NCBI RefSeq assembly: GCF_964275005.1
Contig: NC_092688.1
Span: forward strand, 24,786,434 to 24,850,433
Reading direction: 5' to 3'
DNA: 64,000 bases
From: Diadema setosum
Taxonomy: Eukaryota > Echinodermata > Echinoidea > Diadematoida > Diadematidae
Numbering within the stretch: position 1 is the stretch's first letter; each line of letters opens with the position of its first letter. The translations under genes and the position numbers were made by a program. The notes beneath the pieces are model-generated. The model searched no databases. It was not told where the DNA came from and was given only the letters and a program-made list of their open reading frames with translations. Positions 21,061 through 60,407 of this stretch are shown here, one piece after another.

Positions 21061-21165
21061 ATTCATTTCATTTCTATTTCATTTCCGGCCAAAGCATATA
21101 ATATGACAATTTCATATAAACAGATTAAGTACAATGTAACTTTTACATTTCCAAATGAAATTTAA

Positions 21166-21966
21166 GGCCGTGTCACACCAGCCTTGCGTGCGACTTGCAA
21201 AGAACAATTTTGACTACCCGGAAGTTCCCTTAGATGATCCGCACATGACAGTACCTAGCATGTATCTCAAAAGTAGTCGCCCGGAGGTGCGCACGCATAA
21301 TTATTGTTTTACCCGCAACCGTGTTTAGGCCCTGTCACACCTTTCCGGGCAAGCTACTCGGGCTTGTTACTTGTAAGGATTTTCTAGCATACCGGACATT
21401 CCTGAGGGCGGAAAAGGATTTGTGCGAGTCAGCGCATGTGTCTTACTTGCTGGACGCGTTATACTTGAGAGTATACTGTGTAACCTTTGTACCAGTCGCG
21501 TGGGGGCTGACAACTCAGTGAAGGAATTCCTCTAATGGAATGGCTGAAATCTCACAGAATTTCATTATCTTGGCTGCATACGGAACTGCGAAGTACCTTC
21601 GTGGGAATTGCCTGGGAAGTACTGCCGCTAAGGGTCTCCTACTGGTGTTCTGCGTGGACCTCTACGGGCATTCCCGCGACTCACCCGGAAAAAGTTTTGG
21701 TCATGCTCAAAACTTGGCTGCGGTTAAATCGGACTTGCGTGAGCACCTCCGGGCAACTACGCGCTAGATACTGTCAGGTGCGGACCAACTGCGGAGAGCT
21801 CCGGGGAGTAAATTTGTCAAGCCGCAGAAGTTCCCCCGTACGGTATGACAAGGCATGAATGAATATTGCAAACACTCTTGTTCGCCCGCTGAAAATCTTC
21901 TACGTGCTGGAAACTACCTTCTCGCCACAAGCCCGCGTAGGTTGCCCGGAATGGTGTGACACGGCC
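21166..21966. mobile_element. 801-bp TIR element, copy 1
   Basis: Starts GGCCGTGTCACACC and ends with its exact reverse complement GGTGTGACACGGCC. It is nearly identical to 29463-30256 throughout. Internally it is GC-richer than its surroundings and repeats fragments such as CCCTGTCACACC. Frames of up to 107 residues exist in both copies but show no transposase motif, so it is taken as non-autonomous. A target-site duplication is not clear by eye. Confidence 0.85.
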
Positions 21967-29300: not shown

Positions 29301-29462
29301 TGCGGGTACGAAAGAAAAACGACTGAAGTGATTTTTCTTCTTAGTGTACGTGTGTAGGTCAATCACAGCTACAAGGGCATATTGTTCACCAAAGCACACT
29401 TTGTAATTATCATTGTTATGCTGGTTATTAATTACCCGGAGACGTTATCTGTGCTTAATAAA

Positions 29463-30256
29463 GGCCGTGTCACACCAGCCTTGCGTGCGACTTGCAAATA
29501 ACAATTTTGACTACCCGGAGGTTCCCTTAGATGATCCGCACATGACAGTACCTAGCATGTATCTCAAAAGTAGTCGCCCGGAGGTGCGCACGCATATTTT
29601 TTACCCGCAACCGTGTTTAGGCCCTGTCACACCTTTCCGGGCAAGCTACTCGGGCTTGTTACGTGTAGTAATTTTCTAGCATACCGGACATTCCTGAGGG
29701 CGGAAAAGGATTTGTGCGAGTCAGCCCATGTGTCTTACTTGCTGGACGCGTTATACTTGCGAGTACACTGTGTAACCTTTGTACCAGTCGCGTGGGGGCT
29801 GACAACTCAGTGAAGGAATTCCTCTAATGGTATGGCTGAAATCTCACAGAATTATCTTGGCTGCATACGGGACTGCGAAGTACCTGCGTGGGAATTGCCT
29901 GGGAAGTACTGCCGCTAAGGGTCTCCTACTGGCGTTCTGCGTGGACCTCTACGGGCATTCCCGCGACTCACCCGGAAAAAAAGTTTTGGTCATGCTCAAA
30001 ACTTGGCTGCGGTTAAATCGGACTTGCGTGAGCACCTCCGGGCAACTACGCGCTAGATACTGTCAGGTGCGGACCAACTGCGGAGAGCTCCGGGGAGTAA
30101 ATTTGTTTCCCCGCAAGTAAAGCCGCAGAAGTTCCCCCGTACGGTATGACAAGGCATGAATGAAAATTGCAAACATTCTTGTTCGCCCGCTGAAAATCTT
30201 CTACGTGCTGGAAACTACCTCCTCGCCACAAGCCCGCGTAGCTGGTGTGACACGGC
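29463..30256. mobile_element. TIR element, copy 2 (direct repeat of 21166-21966)
   Basis: Begins GGCCGTGTCACACC and ends GGTGTGACACGGC. It is near-identical to 21166-21966. Differences include a lost 11-12 bp block (GGTTGCCCGGAA) near the right end, a short gain (TTTCCCCGCAAG) near 30105, and scattered substitutions. High similarity of two copies 8 kb apart indicates recent spread of the family. No transposase motif. Confidence 0.85.
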
Positions 30257-30460: not shown

Positions 30461-32774
30461 GGTTTTCCCGGCCAATTTCGCACTTTTGTCAGTCCATTTG
30501 ATAAAAGGTTCATTCAATTTAGCGAAAATCCTCGTCACTGCACATTCTGTCATTCAAAATTGCAACTAGTTCGTTTAATTTAGCATTTCGGTCAATGAAA
30601 TTCGCACATGTGCCTTTCGAATTCGTAAAACGGGCATTCAAATTGGCACGTGCTCTTCAGTCATTCAAATTCGCCAGCACTGGCGGAAAATGGTATTTCA
30701 GTCATTCAATTTCGCGTATGGGCAGTCAAATTCCAAACATGTTCATTCAAATTGGCGTAATATTATTTCTATTTTGAAAAGGTGAGAACCGTGATTTATA
30801 CGTATTTAAATGTGAATTTTTGTTTCATCCACACACTGTTAAGTATATAGTAAAGGTATCTTTGACCCTAAATAACTCAAGTTTGTTGTTCTGTAACGCC
30901 CCTCTTCTTCCATACATGTTATCAGAACTATACATGCCATGCTTGCACCAGTACCATAGATTCACTTCACTTTCTTATGTCCAGTCATAGCAGCACGAGT
31001 TAGATACAGGCGTATCTCTCAAGACAAGGCAAGTACCAAATTGTGTCTCGCCCATTCGCGTACAAGGAATTAATATCTTTTATAACTCCCAGAAGTTAAT
31101 TGACCTGCTTATGACCTTTGACCTTGTGGTGACTTTCAACACTCCAAAGGACATTTACCATCCAAGTTTGGTCACAAACGGACAAAGGGATCAAAAGTAA
31201 TGCGCTATAATCGAAATGCGCCATAAAAACTTAACATTGGGCCCTAAAAATTTGTTGACCCCTTTTTGTGACCTTTGACCTTGTGATGACCTTTAACTCC
31301 CCAAGGGACATATACCGTCTAAGTTTGGTCACAAACGGACATAGGGATCAAAAGTTATGAGCCATAAACGAAATGCGCCCTAAAAACTTAACATTGGGCC
31401 CTAAAAGTTCGTTGACCCCTGTCTGTGACCTTTGACCTTGTGGTAACCTTCAACTTCCCAAGAGACATCTACCATCACTCAAGTTTGATTGCTATTGTAG
31501 CAACATGTGCTGAGTTACGTGTGATAAGAGAGTCTTGCAAGTAAACTTTAACATATGACCTCAAACGACCTTTGACCTTATCATGTGACCTCTTACGGTA
31601 CCATAACATGAGGTACCCCCAGTGCATCCATCATCCGAGTTTGATTGCCATTGTAGCAACATGTGTCGAGTTACGTGTGATAAGAGTCTTGCAAGTAAAC
31701 TTTAACGTATGACCTCAAATGACCTTTGACCTTATCCTGTGACCTCCAACGGCACCATAACATGAAGGTACCCCCAGTGCATCTAGGACCCACTTTAGGT
31801 TGTAATCCAAGCAACTTATGTGAAGTTATTTGTCAAAAGAGAGTCTTGCAGGTAAACTTTGACATAGAAAAGAGAGTCTTGCACATACTCTTTAATATAT
31901 ATGACCTCAAATGACCTTTGACATCATCACATGACCTCCGACAACACCATAACATGAAGATACCCCTAGTGCTTCTATCACCCAAGTGTGGCTGCCATTG
32001 CTGTAACAGTTGCCAAGTTATGCATCATAAGAGAGTCTTGCAAGTAAACTTTAACATTTGTGACGGACGACGGACGGACGACGGGCGGACGCCATTTGGA
32101 TCCCTTAGTCTCGCCTTCACCTCCGGTGGGCGAGACAAAAACAGGGAGAGAATCATAGAAGCATTTGAGGGTAATAACCTTGACAAATTGATGGCTAGAG
32201 TTGATCCAAGAACTTTTATTTATTCCTAATGATAATTAACGCAATCTAGCACCCACCAAATATGATATTGAAACATGCAGATGAAAGAAATAATAATGTA
32301 AATTGAAACCTCCTTCTCCAATTATTGACAAAACAAACTTAAGATCAATGTATCTGTGAATGAAATAATGCAATCGCACATTATAAACACATACACTTAT
32401 TTTGAAAGTACTGTTGCAAAGGTGGTATCAGAAAAAAAAAGCATAATCGTGTCTGCTAAATTGACTGCAGTAAATGCGAAATTGGATGCCGAAGAATGAA
32501 TTCGAATGAACGAGCGCAGCGTTTACGTGATCACGTGACTATATCGTGCTAAATTGAATGAACGATTTGCAAAATGGTACTTGTCTTACGAATTTGAACT
32601 GAGAAAGTGCTGATTCGAATGATGTAAAAGGTAATTTGAATGCTCCAAAATGAATTTGAATGAAAAGATTATAAAATTGAAATACCGAGCATGCCGTCTA
32701 GGCTAAATTGTGCTAAATTGAATGCAGCAACTAGGTTGTGGACTGAAAAAAGTGCGAAATTGGCCGGGAAAACC
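30461..32774. mobile_element. 2.3-kb TIR element with repeat-rich arms and a tandem-array core
   Basis: The ends are inverted: GGTTTTCCCGGCCAATTTCG then CACTTTT-TCAGTCCA on the left, and the reverse complement on the right. Inside each end, for about 300 bp, variants of TCATTCAAATTCGC are tandemly reiterated, on opposite strands at the two ends. The middle (about 31080-32125) is a separate tandem array. No transposase is seen. The TIR may extend a few more bases outward (AATA-AGG on both sides), so the borders and the target duplication are uncertain. Confidence 0.75.
31080..32125. repeat. GTGACCTTTGACCTTGTG tandem array, copy A
   Basis: Diverged units of about 135-190 bp, each with TGACCTTTGACCTTGTG, GACAT-TACCATC, AAGTTTGGTCACAAA and CGCCATAAAAACTTAAC. 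The later units switch to a related form (GCAACATGTG, GAGAGTCTTGCAAGTAAAC). It ends in a (GGACGAC)n run and CACCTCCGGTGGGCGAGAC. The open frames inside follow the repeat and are not genes. Confidence 0.85.
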
Positions 32775-38639: not shown

Positions 38640-39425
38640 ATTCACAAATAGTTTAGTCACAAATGGAGTTATGGATCAAAAGTTATGACCCATAATGGAA
38701 ATGCGCCATAAAAACTTAACATTGGGCTCTAAAAGTTCGTTGACCCATGTTTGCGACCTTTTACCTTGTGATCATCCACTCCCCAAGGGACATCCACCAC
38801 CCAAGTTTAGTTACAAATGGAGTTATGGATCAAAAGTTATGACCCATAATAGAAACGCGCCATAAAAAACTTAACATTGGGCTCTAAAAGTTCGTGGACC
38901 CATGCTTGTGACCATTGAACGTGTGGTGACCATTCACTTTAATACCAAGGGACATCTACCATCCCAGTTTGATCTCAAATGGAGTTATGGATCCAAAGTT
39001 ATGACCCATAATAGAAACGTGCCATAAACACTTAATATTGGGCTCTATAAGTTTGTTGACCCCTGCTTGTGACCTTTGACCTTGTGGTGATCATCCACTC
39101 CCCAAGGGACATCTACCATCCAAGTTTGGTCACAAATGGAATTACGGATCAAAAGTTATGACCCATAATAGAAACGCGCCATAAAAACTTAACATTGGGC
39201 TCTAAAAGTTCATTGAACCCTGCCTGTGAGCCTTGATCTTGAGGTGACCTCCACATATGGTAAAATGTGAAACTTTGTATGACCCCTCTTCCCTGAAAGT
39301 TTGATTGCAATTGAAGCCCAGAGTAAAGAGTTATTGAAGTTTTTGTAGCGTTACGGACAGACGACGGACGGACGGACGGACAGATAGACGCCGCAGGCGA
39401 GTCTCCCCTCACCTCCGGTGGGCTC
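38640..39425. repeat. GTGACCTTTGACCTTGTG tandem array, copy B
   Basis: Five to six units of about 120-130 bp built from AACTTAACATTGGGCTCTAA, TGACCTTTGACCTTGTGGTG, CCAAGGGACATCTACCATC and AAAAGTTATGACCCATAAT. The array is more homogeneous than copy A. It ends in (GGAC)n and CTCCCCTCACCTCCGGTGGG, the same terminator-like end as copy A, then an A run. This shared end suggests the array is part of a mobile or processed unit rather than a simple satellite. Confidence 0.85.
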
Positions 39426-53547: not shown

Positions 53548-54196
53548 ACATGTGCGGGATTTCCGAGTGCGATGTGCTTGACTCGACTCTCTCGAGCGAG
53601 TACTACATGTAGCTGACTGGACTATTGACCCACAAAGGTACGTGAAAATGCTGTTAGTTTTCGACCCATTTTATAAAAAAAAAAAAAAATGATGCACAGG
53701 ATTATTTCGTGGCGTTAGTGGAGACGCAGCTCACTCTCGGGTATTTACAATGTAGTTCAACATGCACTCGGCTTCGCCTCGTGCATGTTTCACAATTGTA
53801 AATACCCTCGAGTGCGCTACGCCTACACTAACGCACTCTATCCTGTGCATCATTTGTATAACATGTGCGGGATTTCCGAGTGTGACGTGCGTAAATGTTT
53901 GGGACGAACATCTTCGGACATCTTGACTTTTGAGCGAGTGCTACATGTAGCTGACTGGTATTGACCCACAAAGGTACCTGAAAAAATGCTGTTAGTTTTC
54001 GACCCATTTTATAAATCAAATAATACACAGGTTTGAGTTCGTGAGTTCGTGGAGATGCAGCTCACTCTCGGGTATTTACAATGTAGTGCAACATGCACTC
54101 GGCTTCGCCTCGTGCATGTTTCACAATTGTAAATACCCTCGAGTGCGCTACATCTCCACTAACGCACTCTCACCTGTGTATTATTTGTATAATATG
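53548..54196 (+). repeat. 313-bp tandem duplication, each unit ending in a palindromic element
   Basis: ACATGTGCGGGATTTCCGAG starts both units (53548 and 53861). Each unit ends in a hairpin of about 170 bp (53688-53860 and 54025-54190). The hairpin arms carry GATGCACAGG or AATACACAGG ends and GCTCACTCTCGGGTATTTAC, with a loop at CATGCACTCGGCTTCGCCTC. The hairpins look like a MITE that duplicated with its flank. Confidence 0.8.
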
Positions 54197-54497
54197 ATAT
54201 CTCCAAAAATATGAACTCAAAGGATCATCACTGTCTCGCTTTCACTCTTGATTTTCAGCTAAACAGCGAAAGTGGTAGGAATTTTTAGTTATGCACTGAT
54301 TACGGCTGCTTTCAGTGTTTTGTTTTGTTTTGTTTTGTTGTTGTTGTTGTTGTTGTTGGACATTTAAGTCACATAATTTCCTATCTTATGTTAAGTTACA
54401 ATGCTTCATCCTCAAATTCTTTTCTACTACTCTGTCCGTTGTATCCAAATAAAACTTTGACCTTTCACATGATACAAGGTGTATATCAACTACGAAC
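54197..54497. other. Short non-coding stretch downstream of the sushi exon
   Basis: Contains (GTTTT)n at about 54317-54338 and (GTT)n at 54340-54358. Intronic on the minus strand if the sushi exon splices to the receptor exons. Nothing else is seen. Confidence 0.5.
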
Positions 54498-54719
54498 CTT
54501 TTGTCAGATTTTCGAATTCCCAGCAGAATGGGATTGGCACGTTCCAGATAGGAAAGTAAGTCGACCGTCCGGGTAGTCCTAAACACTGCAGTGTCGCACT
54601 GCCATTGACGATGTAACCTTCATCACAGATAAGAGTTATCTTAGACCCAAAGCTTGTCACATTAGAGTTCCAATGACCATTTGACACGTGACCGGGGTAA
54701 ACACAAAACCCCAAAGGAA
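54498..54719 (-). CDS. Sushi/CCP domain exon
   Basis: A 222-bp exon with acceptor TTTTCTTGACAG and a weak donor (AAAG-GTTCGT), phase 1 on both sides, as is standard for CCP exons. It encodes VPLGFCVYPGHVSNGHWNS, then SFGSKITLICDEGYIVNGSA, TLQCLG, and IWNVPIPFCW. The four cysteines (GFC, LIC, LQC, PFC), the CDEGY and the tryptophan before the last cysteine define a complement control protein module. It is extracellular and likely N-glycosylated (NVT, NGS). It is on the same strand and 7.7 kb upstream of the receptor stalk exon, separated by LINE-E. It probably belongs to the same gene, as the ectodomain of the TM receptor, but intermediate exons are not identified. Confidence 0.8.
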
Positions 54720-54776
54720 CTGTCAAGAAAAAGAAAATAAATAATGGAGCAATATAAATAAAGAAATAAAAAATAA

Positions 54777-54975
54777 ATAAATATATATACACATATATAT
54801 ATATAATTATATATATGCATATATTTGAATATATACGCATATTTATGTGTACATGTATGTGTATATAAAATGAATAATATAAATATGCATATTTCTGTAT
54901 ATATACGTATATTCATAATTATATTTGTATATACAATAATATATATATATATAATTATATATATATATGTTGCGA
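54777..54975. repeat. AT-rich (TA)n low-complexity tract
   Basis: Nearly pure alternating A/T with a few G and C over about 200 bp. It lies directly at the outer 3' end of the left Penelope-like copy, and a (TA)n tract also flanks the right copy (58144-58168). Target preference or expansion during insertion is possible. Confidence 0.75.
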
Positions 54976-55002
54976 ATTCACGTATTGGCTCCAATATAGC
55001 GA

Positions 55003-56485
55003 AGAATCAAGAAATAAACTAGTAATGCATTATTTCGCCAATAAGAATGAGTTTATTGAACAACTCAAATTTTCGGTGGCCTCCACCTTCTTCAGGAGTC
55101 TCGACGCGGAATGTCAATACCAAAACATAAATTGAACATGAAGAGCGCGCACTCATATACACAGAATTGGTTGCTATGAGAGTGCGTACCCTTTACATGA
55201 TGTTGCCATGTAGACGCAATGTAGTCAAGGTACCCCACGCATAAGGAGGAGGACATTGACATGTTTATTACGTAACAATGGTGTTCAATTACTTTGTATT
55301 ACTAGTATCACATGTTAAGATATCGACATATGTACTCATCAACGTACCATAAGTTACAAAATTAGGTTAAAGAGCGCTCCAACAATCAAATTGTTTCATG
55401 ACTTAAAATACAAAAATCATCGGTAGGAAGAAGTCGGTATAATAATTCCTGTTAAGAAACTGATGAAATCGTCAATTACAAAAGCCACAGTTCGGTGTCT
55501 CGCTGAAAGCTAAACAGATTTGAACATGCAAGTGTGAAATTGATTGACTCATACAACTGAGTGATAGGATGACAGTGTGAATCCATCTACAGAAAATAAT
55601 ACAAAATAAGAGTAAATTGATTATTAAGATGGAGACATGAAATCATAATATTCGCTATAATTCGTCATAATCTCAGACAGAATAACCAACTAATTTCTCT
55701 ATCACAACACCAGTGGTAGTGAAACAGTTATCAATTAGAAAGATATTTTGAAAAATATTTTGAAAAAAATATCTTATAATCCTCATAATGACTTATTCCT
55801 CTCTTTAACGGAAGAATGAGTAACCGTTTAGAATGGATAAATCCCTGTTCAACCCTTCACCTTGAAAGCTCTTACTCTTCACGATTACTCGTAACTCGGC
55901 GAGTTTTCTTTCCTCTGCTGATGTGTAGTCTCCCCCGAAAATGCACACTCTGACATCCTTCAATGAGTGGCCGGGGAGGTTGAAGTGTTTGGCAACGGGA
56001 AGGTCGTTCCGATTTTTCAGGATGGACGATTTGTGATTATTAAAGCGCATCCGGAATTTGGTGCTGGTCTCACCGATATAGATAGCGTGAGGGCATTGTG
56101 CACACATCATACAATACAGTACATTACTGGAATCGCAGGTAAGTCTCTGTGGACGGAGGGTGACATTGTTGGAGATTTTCACCCTAGTGTCAGTAATAAG
56201 GTGTTTACAAATTTGGCACCTAGGCTTAGTACATGGTGTGTTACCACTCGGTGGTAAAGGTGCTGGGAGTTTGGTACTTACAAGCAATTTTCTGAGATTT
56301 GGGGGCTGACGCTGGGCGTGCAGAGGTTGATCTCCAACAAGTTTCCCTAACTCGGGGTCGAGTGCCAGTGTAGGCCATTCTTGTCTGACTTGTTTCACGA
56401 AAGATGTGGTAGCAGGGTGGTAAGTGGTCACGAATGGCAGACGTGCCTTGTTTTCCTCCAAATTAGTTTTGTTGAGGAGAACTCT
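55003..56485 (-). pseudogene. Penelope-like element, left (inverted) 5'-truncated copy
   Basis: The minus-strand frame 55805-56485 encodes the C-terminal third of a Penelope-like protein. It has a linker with CTKPRCQICKHL, then a GIY-YIG endonuclease: SNVLYCMMC, CPHAIYIGETSTKFRMRFNN, HFNLPGHSLKDV and AEERKLAELR, ending SFFR. The translated part is identical to the right copy over more than 200 residues. The copy extends about 30 bp further at its 3' end (GGAGCCAATACGTGAATTCG) than the right copy. It lacks all of RT. It cannot be autonomous. Confidence 0.9.
55071..55095 (-). ncRNA. Hammerhead-like ribozyme core, left copy
   Basis: Reverse-strand counterpart of 58048-58072: CTGAAGA, five-base stem GGTGG/CCACC with a short loop, then GAAA. 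Identical in sequence to the right copy. Helices I and III are not clear. Confidence 0.35.
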
Positions 56486-58143
56486 TCACATCAAACAATC
56501 GATTGTTTATAGTCAGATGCTTCGCTTCCGCCGAATCATCTCGGACAAGGATATGTTTGACAGAGAGGTCCTTACACTAGGTAGACAATTCCTCAAACGA
56601 GGATATCCTCCAAAAATGATCAGGAATGCAATTCGTAGAGTAAAAGGGAAATCCCGAAGAGTTCTCCTCAACAAAACTAATTTGGAGGAAAACAAGGCAC
56701 GTCTGCCATTCGTGACCACTTACCACCCTGCTACCACATCTTTCGTGAAACAAGTCAGACAAGAATGGCCTACACTGGCACTCGACCCCGAGTTAGGGAA
56801 ACTTGTTGGAGATCAACCTCTGCACGCCCAGCGTCAGCCCCCAAATCTCAGAAAATTGCTTGTAAGTACCAAACTCCCAGCACCTTTACCACCGAGTGGT
56901 AACACACCATGTACTAAGCCTAGGTGCCAAATTTGTAAACACCTTATTACTGACACTAGGGTGAAAATCTCCAACAATGTCACCCTCCGTCCACAGAGAC
57001 TTACCTGCGATTCCAGTAATGTACTGTATTGTATGATGTGTGCACAATGCCCTCACGCTATCTATATCGGTGAGACCAGCACCAAATTCCGGATGCGCTT
57101 TAATAATCACAAATCGTCCATCCTGAAAAATCGGAACGACCTTCCCGTTGCCAAACACTTCAACCTCCCCGGCCACTCATTGAAGGATGTCAGAGTGTGC
57201 ATTTTCGGGGGAGACTACACATCAGCAGAGGAAAGAAAACTCGCCGAGTTACGAGTAATCGTGAAGAGTAAGAGCTTTCAAGGTGAAGGGTTGAACAGGG
57301 ATTTATCCATTCTAAACGGTTACTCATTCTTCCGTTAAAGAGAGGAATAAGTCATTATGAGGATTATAAGATATTTTTTTCAAAATATTTTTCAAAATAT
57401 CTTTCTAATTGATAACTGTTTCACTACCACTGGTGTTGTGATAGAGAAATTAGTTGGTTATTCTGTCTGAGATTATGACGAATTATAGCGAATATTATGA
57501 TTTCATGTCTCCATCTTAATAATCAATTTACTCTTATTTTGTATTATTTTCTGTAGATGGATTCACACTGTCATCCTATCACTCAGTTGTATGAGTCAAT
57601 CAATTTCACACTTGCATGTTCAAATCTGTTTAGCTTTCAGCGAGACACCGAACTGTGGCTTTTGTAATTGACGATTTCATCAGTTTCTTAACAGGAATTA
57701 TTATACCGACTTCTTCCTACCGATGATTTTTGTATTTTAAGTCATGAAACAATTTGATTGTTGGAGCGCTCTTTAACCTAATTTTGTAACTTATGGTACG
57801 TTGATGAGTACATATGTCGATATCTTAACATGTGATACTAGTAATACAAAGTAATTGAACACCATTGTTACGTAATAAACATGTCAATGTCCTCCTCCTT
57901 ATGCGTGGGGTACCTTGACTACATTGCGTCTACATGGCAACATCATGTAAAGGGTACGCACTCTCATAGCAACCAATTCTGTGTATATGAGTGCGCGCTC
58001 TTCATGTTCAATTTATGTTTTGGTATTGACATTCCGCGTCGAGACTCCTGAAGAAGGTGGAGGCCACCGAAAATTTGAGTTGTTCAATAAACTCATTCTT
58101 ATTGGCGAAATAATGCATTACTAGTTTATTTCTTGATTCTTCA
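56486..58143 (+). pseudogene. Penelope-like element, right copy, RT end plus GIY-YIG endonuclease
   Basis: Reads from the inversion junction: HIKQSIVYSQMLRFRRIISD and RGYPPKMIRNAIRR (C-terminal end of the Penelope RT), then the linker and GIY-YIG endonuclease through to the stop at 57338 and a 3' region of about 800 bp. Positions 56656-58143 form a near-perfect inverted repeat with 55003-56485; the 170 bp 56486-56655 are unique to this copy. Penelope-like elements encode RT plus a GIY-YIG nuclease and often integrate with truncated, inverted 5' copies. It is 5'-truncated, so inactive by itself, but the remaining frame has no lesion. Confidence 0.9.
58048..58072 (+). ncRNA. Hammerhead-like ribozyme core, right copy
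   Basis: CTGAAGA (fits CUGANGA), then A, stem GGTGG, loop AGG, stem CCACC, then GAAA: the conserved centre of a hammerhead ribozyme with helix II. It lies in the 3' region of a Penelope-like element, where hammerhead motifs are known. Downstream TTGA-GTTGT-TCAA followed by TA could be a short helix III and cleavage position, but helix I pairing is poor. Motif only; activity is not implied. Confidence 0.4.
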
Positions 58144-58569
58144 TTATATATATATATATATATATATAGTTTCTCAACCAGTGCACTTTTCAACGCAGAG
58201 GCTGCGTAACGGGTACGATGTCAGGTCTCACGTGGACTGTCATTTCAAAGTCCTTCATCGTGCCGACACCATTCAAGACTTCCGGGTATTTTCCTCGTCT
58301 GAAGATGCATGAGAGGGGTTGGCATCATGATCATGGTCATCAGAGCCTGAACAGGATTCAGATGTGGCTGATTCAAGTGTCCAATCATTTTGAATTTCCA
58401 ACAAGAGTGACCATGGGCTGGGCAGCTAGGATCCCAGGCTTGTGACTCTCAAAATGTACAGTTCGTACAAACCTAAGCTGCATCATTTAGTGGTCCAAAT
58501 GGACAAATGATTGGGTCTATTCTGCTGGTTATTGCTTCGGGATCAAAATTCATTCCCGTTGTTTGTTAC

Positions 58570-59090
58570 TGTGGGGCTAGTTTGGAAGTACGGCAAGAGG
58601 TGATGAACCATGCTCTTCCATGATGGCAGCTCGTTGGTCTGCTGCTTGATTCACCCGAGAGTTATTGTCAATCAAAGATGTTAATGTTAAGCTCGGCTGG
58701 TTCACCAAGAAGACGTAAGGGGAGTCTAGATAATGAACACTTATCCACAAATTGGTCGTGAAGATGCTCGTCTCTCCTATTTGAGAACGCACATGATGCA
58801 GCTATAAGCTTTTCAGCCTGGTGCAGAACTTGTCTACCATTCTGTTGGGGTGTTGAGCTGTTTGCCGAAATGATGGCACTCAGATGCAATGTTCAGAGTT
58901 AGCGAGAAGTACTTGTTCAGTGCAGATCGTGCGAAGTCATACTCGTTCTGCTGGCTGGTCAGGTTGCTGGTGTTGCCGCTGGAAGAGTGAGGGTGTTGAA
59001 TACTTTGTGTATCTCGGGGGCCTGCAGTGTGCAGAAGAGGGGCCTTCTTCTGGTTCGCATGTGTGCAAAATGCCAGGTGTGTCAACATAG
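58570..59090 (-). pseudogene. Degenerate Gypsy gag remnant
   Basis: Minus-strand pieces in two or three frames: EYDFARSALNKYF and NIASECHHFGKQLNTPTEW, then ASCAFSNRRDEHLHDQFVDK, LPLRLLGEPAELNI, and RVNQAADQRAAIMEEHGSS. The order (Y-D-x-A-x-x-x-L-x-YF, R-x-x-F, C-x-F, RDQFVDKC, LR-LL-x-EP-x-L, QQAAIM) matches the capsid region of Gypsy gag proteins. No protease, RT or integrase is seen. A short Asp/Ser/His-rich segment at 58270-58400 may be a further piece. Unrelated in sequence to the Gmr1-like gag. Confidence 0.65.
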
Positions 59091-60407
59091 TAGGCGAACT
59101 GTCTAGTTCACCTCGTCCACGCAGTTAAGACTCTTGCAGAGATCATTGTAAAGGGAGCCGATGGAGGTGCATCAATGTACTGGACAATGGTTGCTGCAGA
59201 GCTCAATTAGTCTTCATCACCACTTTATGTCTTGTGTTGGGTACTACATTAAGATCAACGAGCTACAGACTGCAGGTATCAGAAATATGATCATGACTTC
59301 CTTGGTTGAGATCTGACAGGCAAGCAGTTTATTTGAGACAAGCTAGCCATTATATAACAGGCTTGACCACTCACGCACACGTACACGCACCGATTAATAG
59401 GATGTGTGTGGTGCTATACATGTATAAGAATATAAACAGAGATATACAACATATTAATTTTGATGTTCTAGCTAGTTATCTGTATGTACACTACACATAC
59501 GGTTGATCTCTTTATATTGAAATATCTGCTACATGCTAGATTCTAGAGTCTAAACACGGCATGAAATAGAAGTATACATTTGACGTCGGAGCCATGGAAT
59601 GGAACAAAAAGTTTTAGAAAGTTTAACATGGGATTCAATGGAAATTGGTGACTTCAGCCTTGCGAAATAATTTCTTGCTCAAACAAAATTGCACTGCTGG
59701 CAGTCACAGTGTGCGATGGAACTGTCAGTTTTAATATCATGTGATGGGCAATTGACCAATTAGATAACTACATTCTTTTACGTGTTGTATAAATTGTGAC
59801 ATTGCAATTCTATGTGACGTAATACCAGAATTAACACACAAGTGTAATTCTAAGTCGTAGAAAGGTCTCATAATTTGCAGTGTTTGATTGTCTTCATGCC
59901 AAAGTGATATTACATAAGATGAAGTGATAGGCTGGTCAATTTCATGAAGCCTGTATAAGTGAAGATATTCTTTTTTTATGTCTTATTTCATGACTGTGGT
60001 GGTATTTTAATTGAAAATTTTATATGAAATATTTGTATATAACTCAAATCCAAACTTGATATGTTTTAAGACAATTCTATCCAAATAGCTTGTAGGTTAT
60101 CAAAACCTGATATGTTTCACTGGGACAATTTTGTGTGAATCATTCGCATGCTCTTGAAACTTGCATCGTTGTCATTTGAATAGTTTATCACGTAGTGCCA
60201 GTTCGTGGCCCTGAGTAGCCTGGCTGATGATAGATTAAGTCCTGTTCTTAGTAATGTGGTGATACATGTACTGCTAGAAGGGCACCTTTCCACAAGTATA
60301 TACCATGAAATACATTTTTTATTTAGAATGAACCTCGGTACTTTCTGGTTCAGAGAAACAAGGTGAAAAATCAATTGGCACATGATTTAACAAATCAATA
60401 GATTGTA
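59091..60407. other. Non-coding stretch
   Basis: No exon, RNA or complete transposon is recognised. The segment 60060-60137 contains a TGATATGTTTCACTGGGACAAT unit that recurs after the L2 element at 62726. Confidence 0.4.

Follow-up and report, generated by a model that had tools for sequence, protein, structure and literature searches.

Head-to-head copies of a Penelope-like element in Diadema setosum as the probable product of paired target-primed reverse transcription

The closest described system to the element considered here is Poseidon of Anolis carolinensis (PAc), a member of the Penelope/Poseidon clade whose purified protein prefers AT-rich DNA and is a predicted dimer (Frangieh et al., 2024; PMC11167929). 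The present family resembles PAc in having a reverse transcriptase (RT) reading frame with a putative GIY-YIG part, a tandem pseudo-LTR (pLTR) structure and AT-rich targets, and, on the reading that we prefer, also in a tail of 30-40 nt that equals the interval between two RT start sites and in the cutting and priming of both target strands (PMC11167929). The PAc text leaves aside the pairing of starts across the two strands and head-to-head joining, which are here read from finished insertions, and in that 2024 biochemistry second-strand synthesis and repair remain steps to validate (PMC11167929). A second relevant system is Penelope of the rotifer Adineta vaga, for which the available part of PMC3846280 describes, as in our family, inverted pLTRs, a head-to-head arrangement as the commonest one and a microhomology joint, together with a 31-bp tail optionally present on one inverted pLTR and target duplications of 8-10 bp in some copies. 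The same part of that source reports a low copy number, unlike the family described here, and invokes self-priming on an antisense template, against which the arm lengths reported below speak. A tail on one inverted end was already known, and what is added here is a count of tails, a test of variants shared between arms and a test of arm lengths. In our literature search, with some key older papers outside its reach, no tail count, arm-length test or shared-variant test was found. Twin priming of L1 inverts a 5' piece of one transcript. In our family, unlike L1, both arms hold the 3' end and overlap, the likeness being that both sides of a target break can prime cDNA (on L1 twin priming, see PMC2837659).

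The window, i.e., the whole stretch of 64,000 nt of D. setosum DNA that was analysed (C4:24786434-24850433), contains an inverted repeat whose arms measure 1487 nt each and align at 100% identity, with no mismatches or indels, around a spacer of 168 nt (Table 1). The next-longest inverted repeat of the window at the same settings is 166 nt at 98%, and the 1487-nt perfect repeat is not due to chance. Both arms code for the same C-terminal 218 residues, except for a TTG read as start in the left listing. The 34-nt tail is found on the left 3' end only, with none on the right, and the insert, which lies in an AT-rich tract and spans 54954-58155 with tail and repeats included, is flanked by a 13-nt direct repeat (ATTATATATATAT) that is a probable target site duplication. 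The palindrome reads as one insert in which two 5'-truncated copies meet at their 5' ends and each 3' end abuts target DNA. A first-pass annotation had recognized near-identical inverted arms of about 1.48 kb, an identical translation of more than 200 residues and a shorter left copy joined 5' to 5' to the right one, all of which the pairwise check bears out, the left copy starting 168 nt further in. Its bounds (55003 and 58143) were off by two and one nucleotides from the exact 55001 and 58142, and the excess that it placed at the 5' side of the right copy amounts to 168 nt, not 170. The tail confined to the left end and the 13-nt direct repeat are additions to what it had noticed.

Table 1. 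Coordinates of the palindromic insert and its parts, in positions of the window.
Feature	Position	Strand	Remark
Left direct repeat ATTATATATATAT, probable target site duplication, AT-rich tract	54954..54966	.	Like the 12-14 nt repeats at L015, L018 and L022a
34-nt tail (T end), left copy, at its 3' end	54967..55000	-	Same letters as the 34 nt that open the following unit where copies are in tandem
Left arm, tailed (T arm), 5'-truncated Penelope-like copy	55001..56487	-	
C-terminal coding fragment of the left arm, GIY-YIG-like part	55805..56461	-	
5'-to-5' joint of both copies, 1-nt microhomology	56487..56488	.	
Palindrome loop, 168 nt unique to the right copy	56488..56655	+	
Right arm, without tail (S arm), 5'-truncated Penelope-like copy	56488..58142	+	56656-58142 pairs with the left arm
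Coding fragment of the right arm, downstream part of the reading frame with GIY-YIG-like part	56490..57338	+	
Right direct repeat, 13 nt	58143..58155	.	

A search of the 912.7-Mb genome (102 contigs) with positions 56600-58100 of the window as query gave at least 63 matches, and as 40 of 562 candidates were scored all counts are lower bounds. One relative, L012, holds an uninterrupted reading frame of 794 residues matching Pfam RVT_1 (E 2.6e-12, 47.3 bits; cut-off 29.6), and the window fragments match Pfam GIY-YIG under the cut-off of 22.6 (15.1-15.7 bits, E 0.019-0.029); the whole L012 frame gave no GIY-YIG row up to E 0.1. The C-terminal part contains an IYIG, spotted by eye, which we take to be the GIY-YIG motif, and by its position and that motif this part is a candidate GIY-YIG endonuclease. 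Tandem units, i.e., a pseudo-LTR structure, are present in L011 and L015; the L011 unit is 3584 nt long, and the 34-nt tail consists of the opening 34 nt of the unit that follows. Tails across the family are mostly 34-39 nt, with a few up to about 56 nt, and folding of the tail RNA revealed no unusual stability (z -1.10 and 0.56). PAc has a hammerhead. In the present family no Rfam hammerhead match was obtained up to E 1 in positions 54000-59500 of the window, nor in the long or tandem copies L009, L011, L012 and L015; what these scans did return fell short of the gathering scores, was of microRNA and other types and lay for the most part in AT repeats. Since PAc insertion in vitro did not need the hammerhead (PMC11167929), the lack of a match is not counted against Penelope-like membership. 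No match was found among PDB sequences for the L012 frame (phmmer, up to E 0.1) or for a window fragment, and a single-sequence AlphaFold model of the 218-residue fragment (pLDDT 32) was of no use. The first-pass label of Penelope-like agrees with the same-genome relative that combines an uninterrupted frame with an RT and with the weak GIY-YIG match of the window fragments, and the family appears to belong to the Penelope-like elements, putatively to their EN+ (Penelope/Poseidon) type.

We read 51 inserts as letters and typed their outer ends as tailed (T) or bare (S). These comprise the window, L009-L042 (where L011 and L012 form one insert and L022 two) and L043-L058. The series up to L042 takes in all 33 other places of the first genome search, treated as 34 loci; a second set consists of 8 short loci out of 13 places newly found by another search, picked for having both arms in view, and a third of 8 out of 38 end pairs obtained by coordinates (both SS pairs and six short ST pairs). 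As the second and third sets were chosen for both arms in view, the share of one-armed inserts is no estimate, and arm length influenced which loci were chosen. Both outer ends were typed in 37 of the 51 inserts, with 34 T/S, 2 S/S (L029 and L051) and 1 T/T, so that a rule of one tail per insert has three exceptions in 37. At the first-search places alone, which were all read, 20 of 21 two-ended inserts were T/S (p ~1e-5 at even chance). Eight inserts were one-armed, ending in S at L014, L016, L020, L033, L036 and L041 and in T at L017 and L024 (six against two, numbers too small to indicate a start-site preference), and six were decayed or had an unclear end (L023, L025, L030, L031, L037 and L040). 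The tailed end of L047 holds a deletion and was typed by eye, and a bare-ended piece of 57 nt beyond L027 was not taken as an insert. L046 is the sole tail/tail insert among those read. TA-rich tracts hold nearly all ends examined, the exceptions being the left flanks of L023, L037 and L043.

A pattern search for the ends throughout the genome returned 253 T ends at up to 2 mismatches and 120 exact S ends (272 at up to 2 mismatches), the reversed-pattern control giving 0 in both cases. Among 100 T and 100 S ends listed, 38 opposed neighbouring pairs lay no more than 12 kb apart, namely 35 ST, 2 SS and 1 TT. One SS pair (C13) turned out, once read, to be T/S (L052), the other (C18) remained S/S (L051), and the TT pair covers two inserts, the S end of L035 falling between. 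Pooling without double counting leaves 36 T/S pairs, 12 read and 24 unread, the unread ones including one 4.8 kb and one 1.3 kb wide and the remainder being below 0.8 kb. In the pooled set of read and coordinate-only inserts, 58 of 61 were T/S (binomial p ~1.6e-14 at even chance).

The first-pass annotation had related the palindrome to the inverted partial duplications known for Penelope-like elements and to a single recent event. The insert does look like one recent event; an inverted duplication of an existing copy is not supported, as most other inserts examined share the same build with different joints. The look for the same junction elsewhere recovered the head-to-head build many times, with joints that differ between inserts. 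For this reason the two arms were most likely made within the insertion event, as two cDNAs attached to both sides of a staggered break, and the head-to-head form is the usual product of this family and, most likely, not a later duplication.

Both arms of an insert also share their source. Insert groups are separated by 33 columns in the 3' 1.1 kb; in 11 inserts with at least 20 informative columns the arms differed in 5 of 327 cells, where random partners would give about 120, and in 11 inserts with fewer columns they differed in 5 of 28 cells, most of them at one column, a weak contrast with the roughly 9 expected at random. Private variants occurred in both arms of one insert 10 times in 13,251 sites (30 inserts, with the three-armed L012 and the rows L015_x and L027_z omitted; 3 of the 10 fall in L037, an insert with an unclear left end), as compared with 20 in 517,751 when different inserts were paired. 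Further arm differences include 73 that are private to one arm, which are later mutations, and 16 that involve two variants both known elsewhere, 5 of these at one column. As the arms share private variants, they derive from the same source. Gene conversion between arms could have produced the shared variants, but these are also present where the arms share only short stretches of 69, 122 and 240 nt (L028, L035 and L044, respectively); two RNAs of one source locus could have produced them too.

The joints between arms were free of filler in 21 of 31 cases, with a mean overlap of 3.24 nt against 0.68 nt for random joints; a gap makes the 12-nt overlap of L022b too long (judged by eye, it is about 5 nt), and correcting it brings the mean to about 2.9. 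In the other 10 of 31 the filler measured 1-28 nt and in some cases resembled nearby sequence. This signature is what one would expect if two free cDNA ends were joined through microhomology, a type of joining for which polymerase theta would be a candidate. The 5'-5' joint of L026 was scored as clean although 131 nt of the element are present there (L026:1940-2070). The piece belongs to the upstream coding region, is in sense orientation and resembles what a template switch in the course of joining would leave. At the one-armed insert L033, a short snap-back copy is attached to the 5' end (near 1889), ahead of the (TA)n target.

At the target site, direct repeats other than plain TA were found in 3 of 26 inserts tested, L015 (12 nt), L018 (14 nt) and L022a (13 nt), which with the window makes four inserts with repeats of 12-14 nt; when flanks were swapped between inserts as a control, three such repeats were reached in 7 of 2000 runs. 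Repeats of merely 4-6 nt occurred in 5 of 26 (L029, L039, L043, L049 and L050), where the target duplication is not universal or has been lost, and most other tested inserts sit in plain TA, in which no duplication can be judged.

In light of these results we read the window palindrome as one Penelope-like insertion by paired target-primed reverse transcription, with a probability of roughly 0.8. The enzyme of the element would cut an AT tract in a staggered fashion, and both free 3' ends would prime cDNA on element RNA, one per target strand. The cDNA begun at the outer start site would acquire the 34-nt tail and the one begun at the inner site would have none. Neither would usually extend as far as the 5' end of the RNA, and end joining of the microhomology type, in many cases with filler, would connect the free cDNA ends. 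The expected product is a head-to-head pair of 5'-truncated copies that carries a single tail and is attached to target DNA by its two 3' ends. What the sequences show directly is the structure, one tail per insert as the rule, a common source of both arms, direct repeats of 12-14 nt at four inserts and the signature of the joints; the succession of steps, the action of a dimer, the repair pathway and a double use of one RNA molecule are inference. Outside support comes from purified PAc, which cuts and extends both strands and has two adjacent start sites; PAc in bulk, on the other hand, displayed no start-site difference between strands, which is compatible with either strand using either start (PMC11167929). 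The eight one-armed inserts and the three that break the one-tail rule also count against paired priming, and the near-equal arms of seven inserts, some with palindromic joints (L022a, and likewise L023), fit a snap-back as well.

Self-priming, in which one template (antisense RNA or the first cDNA) folds back and copies itself into the second arm, is the strongest of the alternatives, and an improbable one. It would account for the identical or nearly identical arms of young inserts, the palindromic joints at L022a and L023, the equal arms at L053 and L057 and the snap-back filler of L033, and it is the published proposal for rotifer Penelope, put forward on the basis of an antisense RNA template by authors who, in the available part of the source, called for further experiments (PMC3846280). 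Self-priming predicts, however, equal outer ends on both arms, and these differ in 34 of 37 inserts. Since the bare arm lacks the tail, self-priming must take the tailed arm as its template and cannot yield a bare arm that extends beyond it at the 5' side. With a threshold of 10 nt, the S arm was the one extending further towards the 5' end in 15 of the 34 T/S inserts (12 of them with an excess above 50 nt) and the T arm was so in 11; in 7 inserts the arms differed by 10 nt or less, and one case was complex. Arm length was scored in 33 inserts, L034 being left unscored although T/S. Self-priming is therefore disfavoured as a general route, the bare arm extending further in 15 of the 33, the window among them.

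Two independent target-primed events at one break, each with its own RNA and a random start site, are very unlikely. Both ends do look like genuine start sites and one-armed inserts use either of them, but an even choice predicts about half T/S inserts instead of the proportion observed in the pooled set, and the arms have private variants in common. Full independence of the two cDNAs is thus disfavoured, since the one-tail rule would not be obeyed. With both alternatives disfavoured, paired priming is left, with one cDNA per strand and one per start site.

Whether one RNA serves both strands is a more tentative matter, on which we lean slightly towards the negative. Two polymerase units would in that case occupy start sites 34 nt apart on the same molecule, each of them extending another strand of the break, and the one-tail palindrome would be the designed outcome and no accident. 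If the bare-end cDNA were begun first and a second polymerase then started from the tail site of the same RNA, this would account for the single tail as well as for arms of one source, as would an asymmetric dimer that used two RNAs of the same locus.

Palindromes can also arise through later inversion or duplication by recombination, and the complete identity of the window arms might be taken in this sense. A normal one-armed insertion that was subsequently inverted and duplicated, or homogenised, is nonetheless highly improbable in view of the dozens of inserts that share the design with different joints and with both 3' ends on target DNA, and of the 12-14 nt direct repeat readable outside a few of them. 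Least probable of all is an assembly or library artefact (a fold-back read), since, although perfect palindromes are a known artefact of long reads and that of the window is known from assembled sequence alone, its ends differ (tailed against bare) as the family rule predicts, 168 nt separate its arms, a 13-nt repeat flanks it and many unrelated places have an insert of the same design, all of which weakens the concern without removing it.

Inverted copies were earlier attributed to self-priming, and a single genome with many young insertions offers a countable answer, i.e., two strands, two start sites and one tail. The insertion record of the family is unusually clean. Paired priming would trace both the tail and the inverted copies, features noted long ago, to a single step, and would show how Penelope-like elements seed palindromes in (TA)n tracts.

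Other repeats are present in the window. Two direct repeats of about 780 nt (21164-21940 and 29461-30241), in register, about 8.3 kb apart and with about 97-98% identity, may represent the paired LTRs of an LTR retrotransposon. Related minisatellite arrays with units of 154-192 nt lie at 31112-32057 and 38650-39254. A hairpin-holding sequence of 184 nt occurs in two copies (53682-53865 and 54013-54196; 87%) and looks like a small fold-back repeat, with a sub-threshold Rfam match to MIR5200 located within it at 54055-54153.
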